Assembly (NCBI GenBank): GCA_040218535.1
Contig: JAVJRG010000009.1
Location: 1-64,000 of the forward strand
Direction of reading: 5' to 3'
Length of the DNA: 64,000 bases
Source of the DNA: Lacipirellulaceae bacterium
GTDB lineage: Bacteria; Planctomycetota; Planctomycetia; Pirellulales; Lacipirellulaceae
Positions 8,564 through 45,993 of this stretch are shown one piece after another. Position numbers and translations under genes: made by a program. The notes below the pieces were generated by a model, which was given only the letters and a program-made list of their open reading frames with translations, searched no databases and was not told the DNA's origin. How positions within the stretch are numbered: position 1 is the first letter of the stretch; every line of letters starts with the position of its first letter.

Positions 8564-8579
8564 TGCAACTGTCGTGCCA
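8564..8579 (-). promoter_or_regulatory. Sigma-54 promoter, exact consensus (TGGCACG ACAG TTGCA)
   Basis: Exact match on the minus strand, 85 bp before hsp20. Only a half-site resembling the island palindrome (CGCACG at 8691-8696) is found upstream. Confidence 0.85.
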
Positions 8580-11565: not shown

Positions 11566-11581
11566 TGCAAAGAGAGTGCCA
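11566..11581 (-). promoter_or_regulatory. Sigma-54 promoter (TGGCACT CTCT TTGCA)
   Basis: Near-exact match on the minus strand, 52 bp before the CBS gene and 100 bp from the centre of the 11673 palindrome. Confidence 0.85.
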
Positions 11582-11672: not shown

Positions 11673-11688
11673 TGTGCTGGATCGCACA
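11673..11688. promoter_or_regulatory. Activator palindrome TGTGCT GGAT CGCACA
   Basis: Matches TGTGCG-N4-CGCACA at 11 of 12 conserved positions. A related inverted repeat (CGCAC GAAT GTGCG) lies just left of it near 11646-11659. Confidence 0.7.
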
Positions 11689-11700
11689 TCAGAAAGGGGG

Positions 11701-12585
11701 CTAGCCCTCGTCTTGCCCGCGCAAATAGACGAACCAATAGACAAGCCCAACCATTAGTGAACCTCCAACAATGTTTCCCAGGGTCACGGGCAAAAGATTC
11801 GCTACTAGAAAGTTCTCCCAATTCAGGCCAACGAACTCAGTCGAAGTCTTATCGACGATCTCCCAGAAATGTTCTTCAGCAAAAGACTTCACAAAGAGCC
11901 CTGCCGGTACGAAGTACATGTTGGCAACACTATGCTCGAATCCAGCAGCAACGAACGCTGTGATCGGAAAGAGAATGGCGAGGATTTTGTCGGTAGTGCT
12001 TCGAGCGCTGTAGCAGAGCCACACAGCTAAGCAAACTAAGGCGTTGCAGAGGATACCTAAGGAAAAAGCCTGTAAGAAGCTATAAGAGCACTTGTTGGCG
12101 GCGATGCTTAGAACATTCAGGCCAATGCCACCATGAGCTTGGTTGTATTGTCGAGTAAAAAGCATGATCAACGCTGTTAGCACTGCTCCAGTGAAGTTGC
12201 CGGCATACACGATGGTCCAGCTCCAGAGCAGCCGGGTGACTGTCAGTTTGCCACTTGCAAGAGCCATCACGACAAGGTTATTTCCCGTGAAGAGTTCCGC
12301 TCCCGCTACGACAACGAGAACTAGCCCTAGACAAAAGGCGACGCCTCCTAGTAATCGGGTAACCCCGAATGATAATGTTTGTGCGGTTTGTGTCGTGACC
12401 ACTGTTGCGAAGATAGCTCCCAAGGCGATGAACGCACCGGCAAGCACCGCCAGGACAAACATTTTGCTCGCTGGGAGCGCTGCTTTCTGGACTCCAATCT
12501 GTTCGGCGCGCTTTGCCATTTCGACTGGTAAGAATGCGTCGATATGTATGTCTTGCGTCTGATTGTTTGTCTTACTGACAGGCAC
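11701..12585 (-). CDS. Formate/nitrite transporter (FNT) family channel, FocA-like
   Basis: About 294 residues, six membrane helices. FNT features: GAELFTGNNLVVMAL in the second repeat region, CNALVCLAVWLCYSARSTTD, FEHSVANMYFVPAGL (the conserved central His on the fifth helix) and NLLPVTLGNIVGG. It passes formate, or a related small anion, across the inner membrane. The frame is open to an ATG at 12651, but a GTG at 12585 has a GGGAGG ribosome site and lies just downstream of the candidate promoter at 12621, so I chose it. It pairs functionally with the formate dehydrogenase at 22.5-27.1 kb and shares its control region with the divergent Usp-GspE gene. Confidence 0.85.
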   Translation of the reverse strand: MPVSKTNNQTQDIHIDAFLPVEMAKRAEQIGVQKAALPASKMFVLAVLAGAFIALGAIFATVVTTQTAQTLSFGVTRLLGGVAFCLGLVLVVVAGAELFTGNNLVVMALASGKLTVTRLLWSWTIVYAGNFTGAVLTALIMLFTRQYNQAHGGIGLNVLSIAANKCSYSFLQAFSLGILCNALVCLAVWLCYSARSTTDKILAILFPITAFVAAGFEHSVANMYFVPAGLFVKSFAEEHFWEIVDKTSTEFVGLNWENFLVANLLPVTLGNIVGGSLMVGLVYWFVYLRGQDEG

Positions 12586-12620
12586 AGGCACCTCCCAACG
12601 GTTATCGCACAAGACTCTCC

Positions 12621-12636
12621 TGCAAGTTCGGGGCCG
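12621..12636 (-). promoter_or_regulatory. Sigma-54 promoter candidate (CGGCCCC GAAC TTGCA)
   Basis: GG-N10-GC and a perfect TTGCA box on the minus strand; the -24 box is imperfect. Its distance from the palindrome at 12719 (90 bp) mirrors that of the divergent promoter (92 bp). Confidence 0.65.
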
Positions 12637-12718
12637 CATTTGGGCGTACACCTACATAGTTGCCGCATTTCATCGGCTTGAGTTTCGGAAGTTTCAAGCC
12701 GTAGCAGTCCGTACAGAC

Positions 12719-12734
12719 TGTGCGAGTTCGCACG
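12719..12734. promoter_or_regulatory. Activator palindrome TGTGCG AGTT CGCACG
   Basis: Matches the island consensus at 11 of 12 conserved positions and sits midway between the divergent FNT and Usp-GspE promoters. Confidence 0.75.
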
Positions 12735-12818: not shown

Positions 12819-12834
12819 TGGCACATTCGTTGCT
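12819..12834 (+). promoter_or_regulatory. Sigma-54 promoter (TGGCACA TTCG TTGCT)
   Basis: Near-exact match, about 100 bp before the Usp-GspE ATG. Confidence 0.87.
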
Positions 12835-12935
12835 ATTGTCTGGTTGGAAGATGAAAAGAAACCTAACTCGACAGCCAGTGGTGCGGACACTATTAGCAAT
12901 ACTAACTCTTGGTATTTGTTTCGCCGCCGAACTTT

Positions 12936-14603
12936 ATGGACACGACTAAACGCATCCTCGTTCCCCTTGACTTCAGCCATTGTTGTTCGATCGCTTTGTC
13001 GAAGGCATTGCATTACGCGGATGAACATCATGCGAGGCTTTTCTTGCTTCATGTGCTGACGGCATTGCCCCACACACAATCCACAACGCAATCGCATAGC
13101 GAAGAGTCGCGCCTCATCAAGGCGGAATTGGATAAGTTGATCTTGCCTAGGGGAGAGCGCAAATACGACCTGATTCGAGAAGTAAGAGTTGGCTGCCCCG
13201 CTGAACAGATCGTCGAGTACGCCAAAGAGGAGGGGATCGACCTCATTATCATGGGCACTCATGGGCGATCTGGAAGCTCGACCGAAACGCTAGGAACCGT
13301 TGCGGCCCGCGTCGTCCGGGACGCGCCATGTGCCGTCATGACCGTACGTTCTAGTGATCCCGTGTCGCAAGAAGCGGCGCCCGTTGACTTTGAAGAAATC
13401 AAAGTCCCACGGGAGGAATTACCTCCTTGCCTTGACCTCGTGGAACGTGGCGTTTCTTTGCGGGCGACAGATATCCACATCGATCCATTGGACGAAGACT
13501 TCGAAGTGCGGATGCGAATCGATGGTCGCCTGCAACATTACTGCAATCTGAGTCACGGCATTGGCCGTCATATCATCGGTCAGCTGAAAACGCTTACCGA
13601 CCTACCAATGACGGACAGTCTCCACACTTGGGAAGGGCGTTTGCATCTGCCGCGTCGACTCAATGAGCTTGAAGTACGCATGACCTCATCACCGGTGGCT
13701 GGAGGCGAAGCTTTGGCCCTGAGGATCCTTGATCGCAAGCACGCCTTGCGTCCGCTTCAAGAATTAGGACTCAGTACCGAAGCTGAGCAGGACGTAAGGC
13801 GAATGATCTCTCACAGAGAAGGGCTCGTGCTAGTTGTTGGTCCGACCAACTCTGGCAAGACAACGACTGTTTACTCGATCCTCAGCGAACTGAACGACAA
13901 GCAACAGAATATCATTTCGATCGAAGATCCTGCTGAGGTATCGGTCCCATTTGTACGCCAACTGACCGTGGATAGCAATCACGGGAGGACGATGGCAAGT
14001 GGTTTACAGACGGTTCTCCGGATGGACCCTGATGTCATCTTCGTTGGAGAAGTACGCGACCCAACAACGGCTAGCCTAACAATGCGGGCTGCTAGCTCCG
14101 GACAATACGTCCTGAGCACACTTCATGCCCGCGACGCTGCGTCAGCAGTGACGGCACTTCGTGATCTCGACCTTGATGGGCGGTCAATCGCTGGGCATCT
14201 GACAGGCGTCATTAGCCAACGGCTTATTCGCCGAGTCTGCAAAGAGTGTGCTGTGAAGCGCGCCTGCACTGAGGAGGAGAAGCAGCTGTACCAGCAACAC
14301 CAGCTACCTGTTCCTGAGTCTGTCTTGGATGCGAGGGGATGCGACACATGCCGCGATACGGGATATCTCGGAATGACGGGAGTCTTTGAAGCAGTCGTTC
14401 TGAGCGGTGAATTGAAATCGGCGATCGAGGGTGGGCACTCAGAAGAGGAACTGAGGGCGCAATTGATCGAGAACGATAAAACCTCGATTACGGTGGATGC
14501 ACTTCGCAAAGCAGCTTCCCACATCACGAGCCTTAGCGAAGCGACACAGCTTCGCTGGAATCACAGCAACAATCCTCTTAGCAGTGAGGAGATACCTCGA
14601 TGA
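12936..14603 (+). CDS. Fusion of a universal stress protein to a GspE/PilB-type ATPase
   Basis: 555 residues. Residues 1-140 are a complete UspA domain (MDTTKRILVPLDFSHCCSIA; GTHGRSGSSTETLGTVAARV with the ATP-binding glycines). From about 150 a type II secretion/type IV pilus ATPase follows: RATDIHIDPLDEDFEVRMRI, Walker A GPTNSGKTTT near 302, Asp box IISIEDPAE, Walker B DPDVIFVGEVRD, His box LSTLHARDA, and the zinc-binding cysteines VCKEC and CDTCRDTG. The normal N-terminal MshEN/GspE-N domain is absent and the Usp domain stands in its place. No pilin, inner-membrane platform or secretin genes lie nearby. It overlaps the next gene by ATGA and has its own sigma-54 promoter. All ATPase motifs look intact; its partner is unknown. 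Confidence 0.9.
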   Translation: MDTTKRILVPLDFSHCCSIALSKALHYADEHHARLFLLHVLTALPHTQSTTQSHSEESRLIKAELDKLILPRGERKYDLIREVRVGCPAEQIVEYAKEEGIDLIIMGTHGRSGSSTETLGTVAARVVRDAPCAVMTVRSSDPVSQEAAPVDFEEIKVPREELPPCLDLVERGVSLRATDIHIDPLDEDFEVRMRIDGRLQHYCNLSHGIGRHIIGQLKTLTDLPMTDSLHTWEGRLHLPRRLNELEVRMTSSPVAGGEALALRILDRKHALRPLQELGLSTEAEQDVRRMISHREGLVLVVGPTNSGKTTTVYSILSELNDKQQNIISIEDPAEVSVPFVRQLTVDSNHGRTMASGLQTVLRMDPDVIFVGEVRDPTTASLTMRAASSGQYVLSTLHARDAASAVTALRDLDLDGRSIAGHLTGVISQRLIRRVCKECAVKRACTEEEKQLYQQHQLPVPESVLDARGCDTCRDTGYLGMTGVFEAVVLSGELKSAIEGGHSEEELRAQLIENDKTSITVDALRKAASHITSLSEATQLRWNHSNNPLSSEEIPR

Positions 14604-18458: not shown

Positions 18459-18474
18459 CGTGCGAAATAGCACA
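18459..18474. promoter_or_regulatory. Activator palindrome CGTGCG AAAT AGCACA
   Basis: Matches the island consensus at 10 of 12 conserved positions, between the divergent promoters at 18393 and 18568. Confidence 0.65.
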
Positions 18475-22485: not shown

Positions 22486-24255
22486 ATGCGAAATCATTAC
22501 CATCAGTCGAGAAAGGGCAACGGAGATGCGAATAGGGCATCGCACCACGACTTACTAGAGAGCGACATTGAGAAGCAAGTTGCAATCCATGGTTCGAACG
22601 AGCAGGCCATCTTGCCCATTCTGCAAACACTGGCCAACACCAGTGTAGATCCTACCAGCAACCAACTAAATGAAGTGTCTGCTGCCACACGAACTCCGCC
22701 AGCTCAAGTCGCGGGAATTCAGTCGTTTTACACGATGCTTTCAGGCTCCGAAGGAGCGAAGATTCCTGTTCGCGTTTGTGATGGTCCTGTTTGCATGGCG
22801 CTTGGAGCAGCAGATTTTCGGAAAGCTCTCGAGGCAATCGATCGCGGGCAAGAGCGATTTCGAATCTGCCGCACGAGTTGCCTGGGCTTGTGTGACCGAG
22901 CTCCAGCAGCCTTGGTCGGAATTCATCCATGTGGTCCGCTCTCGCAGGAGGAGTTGCCTCACAGCCTCATAGTTCCCCAGAGAAGTAGCTTCACGTATTC
23001 GCAACCTCTCACTCACGAACACCGAGTAGCTATGGCTCGGCTACAACCATCGAGTGAACAAAATCCTAATGGCGGCATTCCGAAAGAAGCTTATAGATCA
23101 CTCGAATCGGCACTTTCTCAGCCAAGTGAACAGGTATTGAAAGAGATTGAGGACGCCGGACTACGCGGTTGTGGGGGGGCTGGCTTTCCTACTGCCCAAA
23201 AATGGCGGATGGTAGCACAAACCGGGGCGAAACAGAAATTCGTCATCTGCAATGCCGATGAGTCAGAGCCAGGTGCCTTCAAAGATCGAGTTCTCATGGA
23301 GGGAGATCCCCACTTAGTCATTGAAGGCATGGCGCTGACAGCTTACGCAGTTGGAGCAAACGAAGGAATCGTTTATGTGCGTGGCGAATACGAGCAAAGT
23401 GCGACGCAAATTGAACGAGCGATAGAGCAGGCCCGCCAAGCTGGGTGGCTTCGAAATCGCCTCGGAGATTCTGAATTCCTCTTTGATGTTCACGTTCATC
23501 GTGGCGCAGGTGCGTATATCTGTGGAGAGGAAACGGCTCTGCTCGAATCTCTTGAGGGGCACCGCGGTGAACCAAGGTTACGACCGCCTTATCCCACAAC
23601 TCAGGGATACCTGGGCCAACCAACGGTCGTAAACAATGTTGAAACCCTCTGCTTGGTCCCGCCGATCGTGCAGAGAGGTGGAGCCTGGTATCGGAACATT
23701 GGTCACCGTGGAACTTCGGGTACGAAAGTCTTAACGTTGTCGGGCCACATCAAGCGTGCTGGTGCCTTTGAAGCACCCCTCGGCTTGACCGTCAGGGAGG
23801 CGATCGACTGGTTCGGCGCTGGGATGCGAGAAGGCAGTCGATTCAAAATGGCGCTCACCGGAGGTGCTGCCGGCACATTCGTACCCGCTGATTTACTTGA
23901 TACACCGCTCGACTATGGGGCAATTGAAGAAGGAGTTGCCTTAGGGTCGGGGGTTATTATGGTATTCGACGAGTCGATCTCTGCGGTCGATACTCTAAGC
24001 TGGGTATTGAAGTTTTTCCGCAATGAGTCTTGTGGGAAGTGCACTCCTTGTCGTGAAGGATCATCAGTCGCTTGCAACATCGTTGATCGCATCGCTCATG
24101 GCAACGGATGCTCAGGCGATTTCTCTCGGCTGAGGCAGCTAGCACGGATGCTCGATTTAACCTCTCTCTGTGGTCTGGGAAAATCGATAGCTCTGCCAAT
24201 TGGTAGTGCCCTAAATCATTTCGCTGAAGATTTCTTGGTACGAGGTGCATCATGA
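22486..24255 (+). CDS. NAD-dependent formate dehydrogenase beta subunit, NuoE-NuoF fusion
   Basis: 589 residues. Residues ~20-150 are a thioredoxin-like [2Fe-2S] NuoE/FdsG domain with cysteines in RVCDGPVCMALGA and RTSCLGLCDRAP. Residues ~190-570 are NuoF/FdsB: GCGGAGFPTAQKW (NADH site), NADESEPGAFKDR (FMN/NAD loop), GAGAYICGEETALLESLEG, and ESCGKCTPCREGSS (4Fe-4S ligands). It passes electrons from the formate site to NAD+ through FMN, or in reverse for CO2 reduction. The gene overlaps the alpha subunit by ATGA. No sigma-54 promoter was found in front, so it may be read through from the GT4 operon. Confidence 0.9.
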   Translation: MRNHYHQSRKGNGDANRASHHDLLESDIEKQVAIHGSNEQAILPILQTLANTSVDPTSNQLNEVSAATRTPPAQVAGIQSFYTMLSGSEGAKIPVRVCDGPVCMALGAADFRKALEAIDRGQERFRICRTSCLGLCDRAPAALVGIHPCGPLSQEELPHSLIVPQRSSFTYSQPLTHEHRVAMARLQPSSEQNPNGGIPKEAYRSLESALSQPSEQVLKEIEDAGLRGCGGAGFPTAQKWRMVAQTGAKQKFVICNADESEPGAFKDRVLMEGDPHLVIEGMALTAYAVGANEGIVYVRGEYEQSATQIERAIEQARQAGWLRNRLGDSEFLFDVHVHRGAGAYICGEETALLESLEGHRGEPRLRPPYPTTQGYLGQPTVVNNVETLCLVPPIVQRGGAWYRNIGHRGTSGTKVLTLSGHIKRAGAFEAPLGLTVREAIDWFGAGMREGSRFKMALTGGAAGTFVPADLLDTPLDYGAIEEGVALGSGVIMVFDESISAVDTLSWVLKFFRNESCGKCTPCREGSSVACNIVDRIAHGNGCSGDFSRLRQLARMLDLTSLCGLGKSIALPIGSALNHFAEDFLVRGAS

Positions 24256-27092
24256 TGCCACCTGCAGAAACAGTGAGAGTTTGTATTGACGGTCACGAGA
24301 GTCGCGTCGATGCAAACATCTCGATCCTAGAAGCTGCCAGAAAGTTGGACATTGAGATTCCCACACTTTGCTACCACAAAGATCTTTCTGTGGTTGGCTC
24401 ATGCCGACTTTGTCTCGTCGAGATTGAGGGTCGTGAGGGGCAGTATCCTGCCTGCGCTGAATCGGTTCAGGACGGGATGGAAGTCTTTACCGAGTCATCC
24501 GATCTTTCTGAGTCCCGACGATTCGTTCTCGAGATGTTGCTATCCAACTACCTTAGCGAACAACTGGAAGCAAACCATTCCGCTTCCGAGTTCTTACGTT
24601 GGGTCAGGCAATACCAAGCGAAAAGCCCTCCTGAAAGCTCTTCTCCGACGCATCATCCCGTTGATGCGGACTCCAACCCCTTTATTAGAGTCGACCTCAA
24701 CAAATGCATTCTCTGCACTCGCTGCGTTCGTGCTTGCGCGGAAGTACAAGGGCGATTCGTCTTGGGAGTCGCTGAGCGTGGACCGGAAACCAGAATCATC
24801 GCAGGGCTTGGCACGGACCTACTTGACGCGCGCTGCGAGTCCTGCGGAGCCTGCTCAGCCTATTGTCCTACGGAGGCACTCATTGATCGTGACAAGTTTG
24901 AGTCGGATTCTCCGGACCGATTGGTCAGGACAACGTGTGGCTATTGTGGAGTTGGCTGCCAGTTCAACCTCAACGTGAAAGAGCAGCGTGTCATAAGCGT
25001 TACTTCACACCCAGACGCACCAGTGAACGGCATGTCGCTTTGTGTCAAAGGAAGATACGGATACGACTTTCTGCATCACAACCAGCGGTTGAAGCAACCA
25101 AAGATTCGCCGCTACCTCCTTGATGACATCGCATTCACCCGTCGTCCCAACGACAGGGGACCTTGGATGGAGGTCGATTGGGAAACAGCAATTGATCTAG
25201 TCGCCCGAAAGTTGGCTGCGATTAAGAGTCAATCTGGAGCAGATGCACTAGGATTCCTCTCCTCGGCGAAGTGCACCAATGAGGAGAACTATCTCGTCCA
25301 GAAACTGGCACGCCAACTCATCGGTACAAACAATGTCGATCACTGTGCACGGCTCTGCCACTCGTCGACAGTCGCTGGCTTAGGAATGGCGTTTGGGAGC
25401 GGTGCGATGAGTAATTCGATGGATGACGTTGTTCAGGAAGCAAAAGCAATGCTGATCATCGGTTCCAACACCACGGAGCAGCATCCTGTGTTTGGTGCAA
25501 TGATTAGGCAGTCGGTGCTGCGTCGGAAGGCCAAACTCATTGTCGCTGATCCTCGAATGATCGATATGACGGAGTTTGCAACGGTGCACTTGCGGCAAAG
25601 ACCTGGCACGGATGTCGCACTTATCAATGGAATCATGCACCTTGCCATCAAGAATGACTGGCATAATCAGGACTTCATTGAGCAACGCTGCAAAGGCTTT
25701 GAAGAACTGAAAGCAATGCTAGAAGCCTATCCGCCTGAGCGTGTTTCGCAGATAACCGGTATCCCTGAGAGGCGACTCTGCGAAGCGGCAGAAATACTCT
25801 GTACCAACCGTCCTATGGCTGTGATTTGGGCGATGGGGATTACTCAGCACACCACGGGAGTCTTCAACGTTCTCTCATTAGCAAACTTGCAGATGTTGCT
25901 AGGAAATATGGGCATCCCCGGTGGGGGAGTCAATCCGCTGCGTGGCCAAAACAACGTTCAGGGCGCCTGCGACATGGGAGCGCTACCCAACGTCTACCCT
26001 GGCTATCAGCCTGTTAATGATGAGCAGACCTACAAGAAATTCGTCGAAGCTTGGTCACTTCAAGACAATGGCAACGGTGGAGAAGCTCGATTTGGACTAT
26101 CCCAGAGCAGCGGATTGACGGTTACCGAACTAATTGAGGCAGCAGGCGAGAATAAGATTAGGGGGCTCTACATCCTCGGTGAAGACCCGGCCATGACGGA
26201 GCCCAACGTCAATCATGCGGTGGATTGTTTACAACGGGCGGAGTTCACTGTCCTGCAGGAAATCTTTCCCTCAGAGACCTCAAAGTATGCAGACGTGCTA
26301 CTGCCTGGGGCAGCTTTCGCAGAGAAGAATGGCACGTTTACGAATACCGAACGTAGGATCCAACCGGTACGTAAAGCGATTGATCCGCCTGGAGCTGCTT
26401 TGCCAGATTGGCAGGTCTTAGCACGACTTGGAACATCCCTGCAAAGAGAGCTGGACTATTACCCCCATGGCACGCAATCGGGGTGGGAATATCAGGATGC
26501 TGCTGAAGTGCTCGCAGAAATCAACACGCTGACACCGTCCTATGCAGGTGTCACCTGGAACCGCGTGGATGCCGGAGAAAGACTACAGTGGCCCGTCCTT
26601 TCTGAATCCCACGATGGGACACCGATTCTGCACGTCGAAAAGTTTACTTGTGGGCTCGGAGAGTTTCATCCCGTTGAACACCTTCCTCCAGCTGAAATAC
26701 CGGACGACGAGTATCCCCTGCTTCTGACCACAGGTCGGGTTCTTTATCACTGGCATGGTGGAGAGTTGACCAGGCGCAGCCAAGGGCTTTCTGCCGTGTA
26801 TCCTAATCCAATAGTCGAAGTCTCTCACGAGGATGCTCGAAGAAGTCGCATCGCAGACGGGATGACTGTGTCGATTCAATCGCGACGAGGGATCCTAGTT
26901 GCTCGGGCAGCGGTGACTGATCGCGTTCCAGAAGGCCTCATCTTTGGGAGCTTCCATTTCCCAGGCTTGGGCAACGTAAACAATCTTACGATCTCAGCAC
27001 TTGATCCCGTGGCAAAGATTCCCGAGTACAAAGTCTGCAGTGTCAGACTTCAGCCATACGATGAGGAGCAAGTTTCAGAGGCTGATTCCTAA
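24252..27092 (+). CDS. NAD-dependent formate dehydrogenase alpha subunit (molybdopterin)
   Basis: 946 residues, FdsA-like. In order: an N-terminal [2Fe-2S] domain (IPTLCYHKDL, GSCRLCLVEIEG), a His-Cys cluster region (~100), two 4Fe-4S motifs (NKCILCTRCVRACAE and CESCGACSAYCPTEAL), the domain-specific 4Fe-4S CGYCGVGCQFNLNV, and the molybdenum bis-MGD domain with ARLCHSSTV near 368-372. The active residue is cysteine (TGC), not selenocysteine. It oxidises formate to CO2 in the cytoplasm with NAD+ as acceptor. The accessory FdsC/FdsD proteins were not found. Formate would enter by the FNT channel at 11701-12585. It ends 4 bp into the convergent antiporter gene. Confidence 0.92.
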   Translation: MMPPAETVRVCIDGHESRVDANISILEAARKLDIEIPTLCYHKDLSVVGSCRLCLVEIEGREGQYPACAESVQDGMEVFTESSDLSESRRFVLEMLLSNYLSEQLEANHSASEFLRWVRQYQAKSPPESSSPTHHPVDADSNPFIRVDLNKCILCTRCVRACAEVQGRFVLGVAERGPETRIIAGLGTDLLDARCESCGACSAYCPTEALIDRDKFESDSPDRLVRTTCGYCGVGCQFNLNVKEQRVISVTSHPDAPVNGMSLCVKGRYGYDFLHHNQRLKQPKIRRYLLDDIAFTRRPNDRGPWMEVDWETAIDLVARKLAAIKSQSGADALGFLSSAKCTNEENYLVQKLARQLIGTNNVDHCARLCHSSTVAGLGMAFGSGAMSNSMDDVVQEAKAMLIIGSNTTEQHPVFGAMIRQSVLRRKAKLIVADPRMIDMTEFATVHLRQRPGTDVALINGIMHLAIKNDWHNQDFIEQRCKGFEELKAMLEAYPPERVSQITGIPERRLCEAAEILCTNRPMAVIWAMGITQHTTGVFNVLSLANLQMLLGNMGIPGGGVNPLRGQNNVQGACDMGALPNVYPGYQPVNDEQTYKKFVEAWSLQDNGNGGEARFGLSQSSGLTVTELIEAAGENKIRGLYILGEDPAMTEPNVNHAVDCLQRAEFTVLQEIFPSETSKYADVLLPGAAFAEKNGTFTNTERRIQPVRKAIDPPGAALPDWQVLARLGTSLQRELDYYPHGTQSGWEYQDAAEVLAEINTLTPSYAGVTWNRVDAGERLQWPVLSESHDGTPILHVEKFTCGLGEFHPVEHLPPAEIPDDEYPLLLTTGRVLYHWHGGELTRRSQGLSAVYPNPIVEVSHEDARRSRIADGMTVSIQSRRGILVARAAVTDRVPEGLIFGSFHFPGLGNVNNLTISALDPVAKIPEYKVCSVRLQPYDEEQVSEADS

Positions 27093-29167: not shown

Positions 29168-29183
29168 AGCAAACAGTGCGCCA
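29168..29183 (-). promoter_or_regulatory. Sigma-54 promoter (TGGCGCA CTGT TTGCT)
   Basis: Minus-strand match with GG-N10-GC, about 100 bp before the tandem Usp gene and 92 bp from the palindrome centre. Confidence 0.8.
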
Positions 29184-29267: not shown

Positions 29268-29283
29268 TGTGCGATACCGCTCA
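29268..29283. promoter_or_regulatory. Activator palindrome TGTGCG ATAC CGCTCA
   Basis: Matches the island consensus at 11 of 12 conserved positions. An additional half-site TGTGCA lies at 29249-29254. The 29070-29419 gap otherwise holds no convincing gene. Confidence 0.7.
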
Positions 29284-29355: not shown

Positions 29356-29371
29356 TGGCATGATCATTGCT
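29356..29371 (+). promoter_or_regulatory. Sigma-54 promoter (TGGCATG ATCA TTGCT)
   Basis: Near-exact match with GG-N10-GC, 48 bp before the hemerythrin gene. Confidence 0.85.
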
Positions 29372-38224: not shown

Positions 38225-38240
38225 AGCAATTCACGTACCA
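38225..38240 (-). promoter_or_regulatory. Sigma-54 promoter (TGGTACG TGAA TTGCT)
   Basis: Near-exact minus-strand match, 80 bp before the Usp operon; its -24 edge is 92 bp from the palindrome centre. Confidence 0.83.
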
Positions 38241-38324
38241 AGTTCAGGGCCTTTGCCTGTCTGACTCTTATCCGTGTCTCTTAACAAGTTTCCGCCTTTA
38301 TGGTTCGTGACCGCACAGTGCCGC

Positions 38325-38340
38325 TGTGCAGTTCCGCACA
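38325..38340. promoter_or_regulatory. Activator palindrome TGTGCA GTTC CGCACA
   Basis: Matches the consensus at 11 of 12 conserved positions, midway between two divergent sigma-54 promoters. A half-site CGCACAG lies at 38313-38319. The 38146-38494 gap has no gene. Confidence 0.78.
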
Positions 38341-38421: not shown

Positions 38422-38437
38422 GGGTACGCAGTTTGCT
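38422..38437 (+). promoter_or_regulatory. Sigma-54 promoter (GGGTACG CAGT TTGCT)
   Basis: GG-N10-GC, 58 bp before the cytochrome gene and 90 bp from the palindrome centre. Drives the unit that contains the sensor kinase. Confidence 0.78.
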
Positions 38438-39851: not shown

Positions 39852-41696
39852 ATGGAACCGCACTCCACCGAACGTGAGTTTGGTCGCCTTCTCGAAGATT
39901 CGCTCAACGAGATTTTCATCTTCGATGCAGAAACCCTGCAGTTCTTACAAGTGAACCGAGGTGGCCGAGAGAATCTCGGGATGACGATGGAGGAGTTGCG
40001 CGAGCTGACCCCCGTTGATATCAAGCCCGAGTTAACCCGCCAAGCCTTCGAAACGCTCCTTCAGCCATTGAGGGATGGCTCCCAGGAGACACTGGTCTTT
40101 AACACCCTGCATCGACGTAAAGATAGTTCCGACTACAGTGTCGAGGTTCACCTGCAGTTGGCAACCTTTCACGACCGGCCAGCCTTCATCGCCATCATCC
40201 TGGATACGACGCTCCGCAATGAGACGGCTGACCAGTTAAGGGTGCGCAACCAAGCGATAGAATCTGTCGGGGTAGGCGTGGTAATTAGCGATGCTCGGCA
40301 ACATGATATGCCGATCGTGTATTGCAACCAGGCTTTCACAAAAATCACGGGCTATTCTTCGGCGGAGGTTATTGGTCACAACTGTCGTTTCCTGCAACAG
40401 AACGACCGCGATCAAGAAGCGAGACATACTATCCGCGATGCGGTGAAATCAGGCACAGAATGTCGGGTTCTCCTGCGTAATTATCGTAAGAATGGCGAAC
40501 TCTTTTGGAACGATCTGCTCATTTCTCCGGTGAGAAACATCGAGGGTACCGTCACTCACTATATCGGGCTCTGCAATGATCTCACCCAACGCATTCGCGC
40601 TGAGGAAGACAAAGCCGATCGAGAAGCACGACTACGGGCAATTCTGGAAGCGGCCGTTGAGGCAATCATCACGATTGATGAAGACGGTATCTGCGAATCC
40701 CTAAATCCTGCGGCAGAATCAATGTTTGGCTATTCTGCAGGTGAGGTCCTTGGCAAGAACATTTCGATGCTCATGCCCTCTCCCTACCGCGAGGAACATG
40801 ACCAGTATCTTCAAAATTATTTGAGCACGGGCGAGAAGAAGATCATCGGAATAGGTCGTGAGGTGATCGGGAGGCGTAAAAACGGAGAAGAATTCCCGAT
40901 GGAACTCTCCGTCAGCGAGGTCGACGTCAAGGGAAGGCGGCTCTTCACGGGAATGATTCGCGACATCACCGATATCAAACGATCTCAACAGCAGCTGATC
41001 CAGTCGGAACGACTTGCAGCATTGGGTGAAGCCACAGCTCGATTAGCGCATGAAAGCCGCAATTCGTTGCAGCGGATCCAGATTGCCGTGGAAACGGCAC
41101 GACTACATTGCGATGAGCATCAACTGCTTGAGGATCAACTCGATTCCATCGAAAATGCCAGTGATCGACTCCATGCTTTGCACGAAGAGGTACGCAACTA
41201 TGCCGCGCCACTGAACCTCGAGTTGACGAAAACGAATCTTACGGAAGTTTGGAGAAACGCCTGGGAGTCAACCCGGTCTCTCCGGGAGGGGCGAAAAGTC
41301 TTGCTAACGGAAAACGTACAGCGTGAGGAAGTGCATGGCCATGTTGATAAGTTTCGGTTCGAGCAAGTCTTTCGCAACCTGTTTGAAAACGCACTTGTTG
41401 CGTGCCCCGATCCGGTTGAGATAACGATCGATTTGAAGAAGAGCCATACTGCTTCGGGGGACGAATGGCACATCACGGTGCAGGACAACGGTACTGGCCT
41501 TGATGAGCAGCAGTGCAAGCGTGTTTTTGAGCCGTTCTATTCAACGAAATCTAAAGGGACCGGTCTCGGCCTTGCTATTGCGCAGAGAATTGTGAGGGCT
41601 CACGGCGGCAATATGGCCGTGATTTCAACCGAAGAGCGTGGTGCCAAATTCGAAATCGTGCTACCGGACGATTCAGCCACGAAGTTGCCGACTTAG
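39852..41696 (+). CDS. Histidine kinase with LOV and FixL-type haem PAS sensor domains
   Basis: 614 residues, no membrane helices. PAS 1 at 12-125. Residues 131-245 are a LOV domain: ITGYSSAEVIGHNCRFLQ with the photoactive Cys at 178, and LLRNYRKNGELFWNDLLISP with the flavin-binding Asn residues. Residues 262-377 match FixL's haem PAS: EEHDQYL places a His at 316 where FixL has its haem ligand (His200), and KKIIGIGREVIGRRKNGEEF aligns Arg336 with the oxygen-sensing Arg220. HisKA follows with LAHESRNSLQRI (phospho-His400), then the ATPase domain (NLFENALVA, DNGTGLDE, STKSKGTGLGLAIA). Likely partner: the sigma-54 activator at 43440. The gene sits in an operon with a sigma-54 promoter, implying autoregulation. 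Confidence 0.9.
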   Translation: MEPHSTEREFGRLLEDSLNEIFIFDAETLQFLQVNRGGRENLGMTMEELRELTPVDIKPELTRQAFETLLQPLRDGSQETLVFNTLHRRKDSSDYSVEVHLQLATFHDRPAFIAIILDTTLRNETADQLRVRNQAIESVGVGVVISDARQHDMPIVYCNQAFTKITGYSSAEVIGHNCRFLQQNDRDQEARHTIRDAVKSGTECRVLLRNYRKNGELFWNDLLISPVRNIEGTVTHYIGLCNDLTQRIRAEEDKADREARLRAILEAAVEAIITIDEDGICESLNPAAESMFGYSAGEVLGKNISMLMPSPYREEHDQYLQNYLSTGEKKIIGIGREVIGRRKNGEEFPMELSVSEVDVKGRRLFTGMIRDITDIKRSQQQLIQSERLAALGEATARLAHESRNSLQRIQIAVETARLHCDEHQLLEDQLDSIENASDRLHALHEEVRNYAAPLNLELTKTNLTEVWRNAWESTRSLREGRKVLLTENVQREEVHGHVDKFRFEQVFRNLFENALVACPDPVEITIDLKKSHTASGDEWHITVQDNGTGLDEQQCKRVFEPFYSTKSKGTGLGLAIAQRIVRAHGGNMAVISTEERGAKFEIVLPDDSATKLPT

Positions 41697-41710: not shown

Positions 41711-41726
41711 TGTGCCGAACCGCTCA
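41711..41726. promoter_or_regulatory. Activator palindrome TGTGCC GAAC CGCTCA
   Basis: Matches 10 of 12 conserved positions and is centred 90 bp before the -24 edge of the BON promoter. Confidence 0.6.
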
Positions 41727-43439: not shown

Positions 43440-44795
43440 TCAGGACTCGCGTGCTGTTTCGGTCGCGTCAATCTGAAATTTTTCAATTAGGCGGTACAAA
43501 CTACGTCGGCTCACTCCTAGAGCCTTGGCGGACCTGAGCTTATTCCCATTTTCTTTCTGTAGCGCCTGGACGACTCGAGCACGCGTCAGTGACGCCAAGT
43601 CGGCATCAGCCATGGCGGGTGAACTCGACGACGTATCATCGGGGCTGAGAACCTCCGGGGGCAAGTTCTCTCTCCGAAGCAACTCGTCGCTAGCGAGAAT
43701 CTTGGCCCGCTCGATCGCGTTGATCAGTTGCCTGACATTCCCAGGCCAGGAGTACTCCTGAATCGCCTTGCGGAATGCAGGTTCCAGCTCCCAGCCTGCA
43801 CCCGCAAAATGCCCCGCCAGCAGGAGGACATCGTCTCCACGCTCACGCAGCGGCGGAAGGACGAGTGACATAACGTTGATTCGATAGTAGAGATCTTCCC
43901 GAAATCGCTTCTCGGCAACCTCCTTGACCATGTCGCGATTCGTCGCGGCAATGATGCGGACATTGACTCGGCGTTCTTTCAGCGAACCGACTCTTCTTAG
44001 GGAACCGTCCTCTAGTACACGCAAAAGTTTAGGTTGTAGTGATGGTGCAAGCTCGCCGATCTCATCAATGAAGAGCGTACCGCCATCGGCAACCTCGAAG
44101 AGACCAGGTTTCGTATTCGCGGCTCCAGTAAAGGCTCCCTTCTCGTGGCCAAACAGTTCACTTTCTAAGAGTTGCTCCGGCAGGGCTGCACAATTGACCA
44201 CAACGAGAGGCTTCTTTGCCCGCTGACTGGACTCGTGCAATGCGCGAGCGACCAACTCTTTGCCCGTGCCGCTTTCTCCCTGGATGAGAATCGGCTTATC
44301 GCTAGGAGCAACGCGTTCAATCAATCGAAAAACTTCGTGCATTGCTGGCGATTCACCAATCATGCTGCCATGAGGCTCGTTTCGCCTTATTAGAGTCCGC
44401 AGTTGATTGTTTTCCTTTCGTATGCGGCCTGCTTCTGCAGCCTTGGTGATCACCGCCTCAAGTTGGCTTAGCTTGGTAGGCTTAGTAAGAAAGTCATACG
44501 CACCAAGCTTCATCGCTTGGACAGCTTTTTCTACTGTTCCCTCACCAGTAAGTAGGATCACTTGAGTTTCTGTGTTGTCTGTGTTGATCTTTTCTAACAG
44601 GTCAATTCCTGACATTCCTGCCATGACCATATCCAAGATCACCACGTCATAGGCGCGGCTCTGCAACTTCTCCAAGGCGGCCTCAGCACTTTCCGCTTGC
44701 TCAACCTGATGCCCTAACTGGAAAAAATAGTTGGCAAACCCTTGGCGAAGATTGTCGTCGTCATCCACAAACAGAAGATCGAGGGTGCTACTCAT
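43440..44795 (-). CDS. NtrC-family sigma-54-dependent response regulator
   Basis: 451 residues. Receiver domain 1-120 (acidic pocket FVDDDD, phospho-acceptor Asp55 in VVILDMVMAG, conserved Lys in DFLTKPTKL). AAA+ domain ~140-370: GESGTGKE (Walker A), ELFGHEKGAFTGA (the GAFTGA sigma-54 contact loop), GGTLFIDEIGEL (Walker B) and the R-finger region FREDLYYRINV. C-terminal Fis-type HTH (KLRSAKALGVSRRSLYRLIE). It should bind as a dimer to a palindrome about 100 bp upstream of -24/-12 promoters. The palindromes and promoters described in this island fit exactly that role. Its own operon has one at 45978. Confidence 0.94.
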   Translation of the reverse strand: MSSTLDLLFVDDDDNLRQGFANYFFQLGHQVEQAESAEAALEKLQSRAYDVVILDMVMAGMSGIDLLEKINTDNTETQVILLTGEGTVEKAVQAMKLGAYDFLTKPTKLSQLEAVITKAAEAGRIRKENNQLRTLIRRNEPHGSMIGESPAMHEVFRLIERVAPSDKPILIQGESGTGKELVARALHESSQRAKKPLVVVNCAALPEQLLESELFGHEKGAFTGAANTKPGLFEVADGGTLFIDEIGELAPSLQPKLLRVLEDGSLRRVGSLKERRVNVRIIAATNRDMVKEVAEKRFREDLYYRINVMSLVLPPLRERGDDVLLLAGHFAGAGWELEPAFRKAIQEYSWPGNVRQLINAIERAKILASDELLRRENLPPEVLSPDDTSSSSPAMADADLASLTRARVVQALQKENGNKLRSAKALGVSRRSLYRLIEKFQIDATETARES

Positions 44796-44835: not shown

Positions 44836-45828
44836 CTATTGAGCGGCGACTCCTTCGTCCATGTAAGATGCCAGAGTGGTTGCGTAGTTCGCCCGCTCGA
44901 AAACGGCTGAAGAGCCACATGCTTTTCTGCTGAGGCTTCCAATCAACTGGCTTACCTTCTGGTACTCATGATACGTTAACCAAGCAAGCATCTCATCCCG
45001 AATATCTAACAGGGAATCGACCCCATTCTGCAGCAGCGTCGAGGTTAGCATGACCACGTCAGCTCCCGACGCTAGAGCCTTGAGGGCATCAGTCCCGTTG
45101 TGAATGCCGCTAGAAGCTGCCAATGAAATCCTGAGTTGGTCTCGAAGAATGCCCAGCCAACGTATCGAGAGTCGCGCTTCACTGGGGTGGCTAAGCTCAA
45201 GGTGCGGAGCTACGCGGTGATGCTCCAGGTCAATGTCAGGCTCAAGAAACCGGTTGAAGAGTACTACCCCGTCGACTCCGGCTTCCGCCAACTGCCTAGC
45301 AAAGTAGGGGAGACTCGAAAAATAGGGCCCGATTTTCACCGCAAGGGGAATGTCCACTTTTTGCCTGACCTTCGAAATGACATCGAGATACTGTGCCTCG
45401 ACCGTCATGGGGGATGCACTCGGATCGATGGGAACGTAGTAGAGATTGAGTTCCAATGCATCAGCACCGGCGTCTCGGATGCGTCGTGCGAAATCAATCC
45501 AGCCCCCAAGCGATATTCCGTTAAGGCTCCCGATAATTGGCATTGTTACTGCTGCCCTTGCCCTCCCCACAAGCGATGCGTAATTGTCAGGGCCTGAATT
45601 GTAGTAGTTGAGAGTTGGAAACTCTGCCATTGATTCGAGAGCTTCGTCGGTCTTTTTGCTCCGCGTCACCTGTTCTTCAAATAGTGAGGGAAGGACCGCA
45701 GCCCCCGCTCCAAGTTCCTCCATATGCCGTAGCACATCCGGCTGTCCGGTACATGGCGATGCAGAAGCGACGATTGGGCTGCGAAGTTTTAGTCCAAGAT
45801 ATTCCGTGGAAAAATCAACAGCAGGCAT
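44836..45828 (-). CDS. Dihydroorotate dehydrogenase-like flavoprotein
   Basis: 330 residues with the FMN-dependent TIM barrel of dihydroorotate dehydrogenases: YLGLKLRSPIVASASPCTGQ, IIGSLNGISLGG, ALELNLYYVP, IPLAVKIGPYFSSLPYF, VVLFNRFLEPDI and AASSGIHNGTDALKALASGA. Such paralogues cluster with stress and anaerobic genes and may reduce another substrate; the loop that carries the base in genuine PyrD is not clearly identified. First gene of the regulator operon. Confidence 0.83.
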   Translation of the reverse strand: MPAVDFSTEYLGLKLRSPIVASASPCTGQPDVLRHMEELGAGAAVLPSLFEEQVTRSKKTDEALESMAEFPTLNYYNSGPDNYASLVGRARAAVTMPIIGSLNGISLGGWIDFARRIRDAGADALELNLYYVPIDPSASPMTVEAQYLDVISKVRQKVDIPLAVKIGPYFSSLPYFARQLAEAGVDGVVLFNRFLEPDIDLEHHRVAPHLELSHPSEARLSIRWLGILRDQLRISLAASSGIHNGTDALKALASGADVVMLTSTLLQNGVDSLLDIRDEMLAWLTYHEYQKVSQLIGSLSRKACGSSAVFERANYATTLASYMDEGVAAQ

Positions 45829-45875: not shown

Positions 45876-45891
45876 AGCAATTCACGCGCCA
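45876..45891 (-). promoter_or_regulatory. Sigma-54 promoter (TGGCGCG TGAA TTGCT)
   Basis: Near-exact minus-strand match, 48 bp before the DHOD-like gene, 94 bp from the palindrome centre. Controls the regulator operon. Confidence 0.83.
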
Positions 45892-45977: not shown

Positions 45978-45993
45978 TGTGCGGTTTCGCACA
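45978..45993. promoter_or_regulatory. Activator palindrome TGTGCG GTTT CGCACA (perfect)
   Basis: The best copy: the dyad extends to 18 bp, CTGTGCGGTTTCGCACAG. It lies midway between divergent promoters at 45876 and 46071. The 45829-46149 gap has no gene. Confidence 0.85.

Follow-up and report, generated by a model that had tools for sequence, protein, structure and literature searches.

Organization of the locus

The window, by which we mean the whole 64,000-nucleotide stretch of Lacipirellulaceae DNA analysed here (contig JAVJRG010000009.1), encodes a histidine kinase in which an N-terminal PAS domain, a LOV domain, a FixL-type haem PAS domain and a HisKA/HATPase core follow one another (Table 1). 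Two of these domains match their profiles below the cut-offs, the first PAS scoring 23.5 bits against PAS_9 and HisKA 22.8 bits against a Pfam cut-off of 26.9; HATPase_c follows HisKA, and His400, the H-box histidine, is the expected phospho-acceptor. The initial annotation had placed the kinase in the cytoplasm and its hydropathy, with a highest 19-residue Kyte-Doolittle mean of 1.14, indeed fits a soluble protein.

On the opposite strand lies a response regulator with the receiver, the GAFTGA-containing AAA+ domain and the Fis-type helix-turn-helix of NtrC-type activators. It belongs to a separate operon from the kinase. The RpoN DNA-binding domain has one match in the genome. Predicted sigma-54 promoters, most of them accompanied by a palindrome, TGTGCG-N4-CGCACA, form a cluster that spans window positions 8018-45891.

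Table 1. Features of the window discussed in the text.
Feature	Position	Strand	Remarks
HSP20 gene 8018, sigma-54 site	8564..8579	-	Perfect; without palindrome (best 5 mismatches)
Palindrome	11673..11688		91 bp before promoter 11566-11581(-), CBS gene 10990
Palindrome	12719..12734		84 bp before promoter 12819-12834(+), Usp/T2SSE gene 12909
Palindrome	18459..18474		2 mismatches; 50 bp before promoter 18393(-), gene 17964 (no Pfam match)
Sigma-54 promoter, stress protein	29168-29183	-	Palindrome 29268
Palindrome	29268..29283		Common to two divergent promoters
Sigma-54 promoter, hemerythrin, PEP synthase and cation ATPase genes	29356-29371	+	Palindrome 29268
Sigma-54 promoter, stress-protein genes 37615-36134	38225..38240	-
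Two palindromes	38302..38340		38302, 2 mismatches; 38325, 1 mismatch
Weak candidate sigma-54 promoter	38422..38437	+	2 mismatches; before 38495-39018-39852, likely kinase operon
Dual-sensor histidine kinase	39852..41696	+	ORF of 614 aa
N-terminal PAS	39879..40196	+	Residues ~10-115; weak PAS_9 match, limits by eye
LOV domain	40263..40601	+	Residues 138-250; Cys178 at 40383-40385; Cys241 at usual Gln position
FixL-type haem PAS	40617..41003	+	Residues 256-384; His316 at 40797-40799, Arg336 at 40857-40859
Kinase core	41004..41669	+	HisKA with His400, HATPase_c; domain matches
Palindrome	41711..41726		2 mismatches; 82 bp before promoter 41809(+), BON-domain gene
NtrC-type response regulator	43440..44795	-	Sigma-54 activator, likely kinase partner; receiver D55, GAFTGA, Fis-type HTH
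Dihydroorotate-dehydrogenase-like gene	44836..45828	-	First of likely regulator operon
Sigma-54 promoter, regulator operon	45876..45891	-	1 mismatch
Palindrome	45978..45993		Genome's only perfect copy; 86 bp from regulator-operon promoter

Two sensor domains in one kinase

That a LOV photosensor and a FixL-type oxygen sensor share this kinase had been proposed in the initial annotation from motifs, with profile searches as the suggested check, and both domains are recovered among PDB sequence matches. At E ≤ 0.001, residues 138-248 have matches to 155 distinct PDB sequences, the best of all being 9vf7/9vf8; 9vf7 is the LOV domain of a histidine kinase (E = 2.1e-33). Cys178, in GHNCRFLQ, occupies the position of the adduct-forming cysteine in the GxNCRFLQ motif, as had been supposed. 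The matches of residues 251-381 comprise 16 distinct PDB sequences, headed by seven of FixL, with DosP next (1d06, E = 1.4e-35; 1dp6, 2.7e-31; DosP, 3e-15). H316, in REEHDQYL, and R336, at H+20 in IIGIGREVIGRRKNG, align with the H and R of the FixL chains, bearing out the spacing argument originally made; in FixL these are the haem ligand and the oxygen-contacting arginine (His200 and Arg220 in B. japonicum). By the NCBIfam test the kinase is nevertheless not FixL, since it scores 257.5 bits with model NF041777, far below the cut-off of 850.

An AlphaFold2 model of residues 128-384, made from 20 sequences and of the protein only (pLDDT 89.9, pTM 0.63), joins the two sensors by a continuous helix (model residues 118-140). 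With VIA-align, the LOV half superposes on 9vf7 with Z = 21.8 (rmsd 1.3, 136 aa) and the haem PAS half on the FixL oxygen complex 1dp6 with Z = 20.3 (rmsd 1.3, 115 aa, 44% identity). For the whole tandem, Foldseek ranks the FixL PAS-A/PAS-B structure 8js5 first (TM 0.77, rmsd 3.7) and the Brucella LOV-PAS lower (TM 0.43); the LOV domain therefore occupies the place of PAS-A in FixL. The linker from PAS to kinase is exactly seven residues, one heptad, shorter than that of YF1, in which heptad steps in the linker are described, in the part of the source available, as preserving light regulation. Sequence matches, relatives (see below) and structural superposition together rule out a generic PAS domain resembling FixL by chance. 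The resemblance of the two sensors to LOV and FixL is thus not accidental, and sequence and model alike give strong support to both identities.

At one position the LOV domain departs from the usual pattern. In the column of strand I-beta where 9vf7 has glutamine the kinase has Cys241, and across the five tandem proteins identified here (see below) the residues are C, C, T, M and A, so that the usual active-site glutamine is missing from all five. All five retain Cys178, the NCRFLQ motif, the flavin-side residues N210 and N220, His316 and its H+20 arginine. According to the available part of Dietler et al. (2022; PMC9098866), the conserved glutamine is common but not essential: it is generally dispensable, functional replacements include Ala and Cys, often with attenuated responses, most glutamine-less receptors still signal, and about 350 natural glutamine-less LOV proteins are catalogued. 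By its sequence, the LOV domain of the kinase belongs among these natural glutamine-less examples.

Distribution and lability of the LOV domain

In the kin set of 59 genomes, the window's own plus 58 others, full-length close relatives of the kinase occur in G001 (78%), G026 (60%) and G013 (57%), and searching 396 genomes of the order with a tandem profile brings in G181 as well. At least five of the 396 genomes thus have the tandem; this is a lower bound because, although 116 gave a match at 1e-30, reading was limited to 30 loci and scoring to at most six candidates per genome. Spacings are identical in all five proteins: 138 residues between the Cys and the His, 128 between the D of the LOV domain and that of the PAS, and 29 from the latter to the phospho-His. 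Among 392 genomes sampled from the phylum, no further tandem was found at E ≤ 1e-65, the other four matches having the Cys replaced.

Within the kinase family, the LOV domain is labile. Four close orthologues of the core (L136, L139, L142 and L156) keep the haem PAS and kinase without any LOV, while three more (L014, L149 and L153) have a PAS that lacks the Cys. On the kinase-core tree, of 12 labelled rows, the LOV changes at least three times; one possible history is a single gain below a fork supported 92/93 followed by two losses, the inner forks being weak. Absence of the LOV from these close orthologues and of the glutamine from the LOV leaves room for a light input that is weak or dispensable. 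The integration of light and oxygen in one kinase to drive the sigma-54 activator, as proposed in the initial annotation, is partly supported.

The wider search, of genome_contigs, confirmed at least 589 relatives, of which 80 loci were kept; it favours a LOV directly before a PAS, excludes records close to the window's genome and can therefore miss cases. A LOV domain was present by profile and motif in all 80 kept loci, yet LOV together with a FixL-type PAS (above 40 bits, with His and its H+20 Arg) in only one, L048, so the combination is not a widespread one. Two others, L049 and L057, have a FixL-like PAS (85 and 91 bits) without the His/Arg pair. L048 is a kinase of a Candidatus Competibacteraceae bacterium, a 1259-residue frame with PAS, LOV and FixL-type haem PAS in the same order; its LOV keeps the usual glutamine and its kinase part differs from that of the window's kinase. 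Given these differences, the combination may have arisen more than once. By eye, the C-terminal end of L048 resembles receiver domains.

Other arrangements of these sensors were also seen. In a 785-residue frame at L147 (G075:C44), four FixL-type haem PAS domains stand in a row, and all have the His and H+20 Arg. At eight loci (L133, L134, L135, L137, L138, L140, L143 and L144) a LOV-resembling PAS with the Cys replaced (47-75 bits) directly precedes a FixL-like haem PAS, which at L138, L140 and L144 fails the strict His/Arg pattern.

The neighbouring activator

In eight of 11 other neighbourhoods (L039, L040, L041, L042, L045, L046, L158 and L160), including those of all four other LOV-bearing genomes, the kinase has a homologue of the regulator (60-82% identity) no more than about 2.3 kb away. 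L043, L044 and L159 lack it, L043 and L159 being short contigs. The order and strand of the genes differ between neighbourhoods. The regulator is the likely partner of the kinase, and the link to a sigma-54 activator made in the initial annotation gains support from this conservation and from the sites described next.

Sigma-54 promoters and an associated palindrome

Sigma-54 sites with at most one mismatch number 12 in the window against 2.56 expected, a count reached by none of 100 shuffles, and three of the ten perfect sites in the 5.36 Mb genome fall there; over the whole genome, the one-mismatch pattern is no commoner than a reversed-pattern control (233 against 245). A dyad count upstream of 31 promoters found TGTGC-N6-GCACA at 13, where the maximum for a 5-base dyad in 20 shuffles was two; those shuffles preserve base content only, divergent promoters among the 31 share upstream DNA and, with nine promoters from the window and 22 from relatives, the palindrome is derived partly from the window itself. 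In its longer form TGTGCG-N4-CGCACA (≤1 mismatch), it has 11 places in the genome, a slight excess over seven in the control, and five of these are in the window. Palindromes alone show a modest excess in the window (eight against 3.46 expected, reached by three of 100 shuffles). As the window was looked at first, binomial figures for its shares of palindromes (5/11) and perfect promoters (3/10) are biased.

Palindrome/promoter pairs number 13 in the window, where 100 dinucleotide shuffles give 0.03 on average and one at most. A sigma-54 candidate lies 30-160 bp from each of the five window palindromes with at most one mismatch, compared with none of six outside. For nine of the ten window promoters examined, a palindrome (≤2 mismatches) lies 50-91 bp upstream, the nearest at 82-86 bp for five and at 50, 72, 81 and 91 bp for the others; the HSP20 gene is the sole exception. 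The seven perfect sites outside the window have no palindrome within 200 bp (best 4 or 5 mismatches); setting them against the ten window promoters compares unmatched sets, because the window's includes the weaker promoters 18393, 38422 and 41809 from looser scans. Among perfect sites alone, two of the three in the window have a palindrome, against none of the seven outside. Pairs at 12621(-) and 18568(+) involve two-mismatch promoters, the former inside gene 11701-12651. Of 39 palindrome-promoter distances, 15 are 82-87 bp and the best period is 10.8 bp, equalled in strength by one in 2000 uniform draws, which is suggestive only since the promoters are related and the null is uniform.

Pairs recur at orthologous genes in seven kin genomes (G001, G013, G021, G026, G181, G193 and G197). 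None was found in G011, which keeps the kinase and the regulator (67%), or in G019 and G007, both without the regulator nearby; G043 has one weak pair. The palindromes at 38302-38340 sit between the stress-protein genes and the gene run ending in the kinase, and a palindrome/promoter pair precedes the kinase genes of the window, G001 and G181, with two, two and one mismatches, respectively, in the kinase-side promoter.

Predicted targets in the window are universal stress proteins, a CBS protein, hemerythrin with a downstream PEP synthase/PPDK-like protein and cation ATPase, a Usp/T2SSE fusion, a BON protein and the regulator's own operon. Because this set resembles the DosR regulon and the Myxococcus xanthus NmpR regulon, we infer that the cluster is a regulon of low-oxygen or dormancy type. 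The NmpR regulon is hypoxia-induced and includes hemerythrin, according to the available part of its description (PMC11841059). Two further observations concern genes within the cluster. At 22486-27092 there are NuoF- and NuoG-like genes, standing apart from a full complex I among the genes scanned, with Complex1_51K and molybdopterin oxidoreductase domains, the latter with 2Fe-2S and 4Fe-4S domains; and gene 12909-14603 is an odd fusion of a universal stress protein domain to a T2SSE secretion ATPase domain.

Proposed mechanism and alternatives

The reading that we favour, and think probable, is of a natural counterpart of the engineered YHF, a soluble dual-sensor kinase and FixL-like oxygen switch with a LOV in the place of PAS-A, that drives a local sigma-54 low-oxygen or dormancy regulon through the neighbouring regulator. 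In FixL, low oxygen frees the haem and switches the kinase on. The kinase here would bind haem and flavin; by analogy with FixL, oxygen on the haem would most likely turn it off and low oxygen would turn it on. Blue light, through a Cys178-flavin adduct, would act along the helix that joins the LOV to the haem PAS and so shift the same on/off balance; the sign of this effect is not readable from the sequence. The active kinase would phosphorylate the NtrC-type regulator which, presumably by binding TGTGCG-N4-CGCACA upstream of sigma-54 promoters, would activate them and so switch on universal stress proteins, CBS protein, hemerythrin, PEP synthase and cation ATPase, along with its own operon and perhaps that of the kinase. 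If the kinase follows YHF, full activity of the regulon would need both darkness and the absence of oxygen. More tentatively, and as something we hold to be somewhat less likely than not, this counterpart of YHF could be a naturally evolved two-input gate that reads light and oxygen cooperatively and is fully on only when dark and anoxic, self-amplifying a local sigma-54 dormancy regulon, its LOV grafted onto a pre-existing haem-PAS/kinase/regulator system and signalling without the canonical glutamine.

The sensors could be correctly identified and yet feed another regulator, with the adjoining activator serving a different kinase. The known partner of FixL is FixJ, which is not of NtrC type, and here kinase and regulator are in separate operons; retention of the pair in most neighbourhoods despite changing order and strand, and the palindrome/promoter pair before the kinase genes in three genomes, make this very improbable. 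Alternatively, the LOV flavin might read redox rather than light, so that the kinase would sense oxygen and redox. Flavin PAS domains of NifL and MmoS sense redox, and structures of both are among the fold matches, but the adduct-forming cysteine, superfluous for redox sensing, is kept in all five proteins and we regard this too as distinctly unlikely. A better case, if still an unlikely one, can be made for an oxygen switch regulated by its haem PAS, to which a vestigial or merely modulatory LOV adds little. The variety of residues at the glutamine position, the orthologues that manage without a LOV and its repeated changes on the core tree all point that way. Against it stand the intact cysteine, NCRFLQ motif and asparagines in five of five proteins, and the fact that glutamine-less LOVs, those with Ala and Cys included, mostly signal, on the available account (PMC9098866).

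Comparison with known systems

Several characterized systems share part of this design. In DosS/DosT-DosR, haem-sensor kinases control stress proteins, alpha-crystallin, a CBS protein and a cation ATPase, through GAF haem sensors and a LuxR-type regulator, with neither sigma-54 nor LOV. The window's system likewise has a haem-sensor kinase and similar predicted targets (stress proteins, CBS protein, cation ATPase), but its haem sensor is a PAS and it has a LOV and a sigma-54 activator. AppA of Rhodobacter sphaeroides, in the part of its description available, combines blue light (flavin) and redox or oxygen (haem) in one protein, though with BLUF and SCHIC domains and as an antirepressor rather than a kinase (PMC4844311). 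NmpRSTU of Myxococcus xanthus, again as far as the available text goes, has an NtrC-like regulator, palindromes near sigma-54 promoters, a hypoxia response, a hemerythrin target and a site before its own kinase genes, as predicted for the window; it differs in its protoglobin sensor, its phosphorelay and its site GCGCA-N5-TGCGC, and that text describes no light input (PMC11841059). Its PAS sensor and TGTGCG-N4-CGCACA site set the window's system apart from NmpRSTU.

Brucella LOV-PAS-HK (6pps, 6ph4) has, by its structure titles, the same succession of LOV, PAS and kinase, but its TM for the tandem is 0.43 and its PAS is absent from the haem PAS sequence matches. FixL of rhizobia shares the haem PAS adjoining the kinase, the His and H+20 Arg, and the closest tandem fold; unlike FixL, whose PAS-A is light-inert, the window kinase has a LOV there, and its likely partner is a sigma-54 activator rather than FixJ. 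Among open PMC papers, judged by title and abstract opening and with planctomycete LOV proteins included, we found no natural kinase combining LOV and FixL domains, although most subscription papers and the supplements of LOV censuses lie outside that search and one may stand unremarked there. The single domains are known; what is new is their natural combination, the glutamine-less LOV within it and the predicted regulon.

The nearest likeness is to a designed protein, YHF, whose LOV carries the usual glutamine. The window kinase has an additional N-terminal PAS and its LOV is glutamine-less. YHF was engineered from the LOV of B. subtilis YtvA and B. japonicum FixL and, in the available parts of its descriptions, answers light and oxygen cooperatively (PMC6798134, PMC4469895). 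The domain order, LOV then retained haem PAS-B before the kinase, and the predicted inputs of blue light and oxygen are the same in both, but YHF is man-made and works with FixJ, whereas the window kinase is natural and has an NtrC-type neighbour. Combined control of one kinase by light and oxygen through LOV and haem PAS has been demonstrated for YHF. A natural case, with a likely partner, target promoters and LOV-less orthologues, would open to test the reasons for which a light input on an oxygen switch is gained or lost in evolution, the way in which serial PAS domains join their signals and the means by which a LOV signals without glutamine, and it offers a possible two-input optogenetic part together with a predicted low-oxygen regulon.
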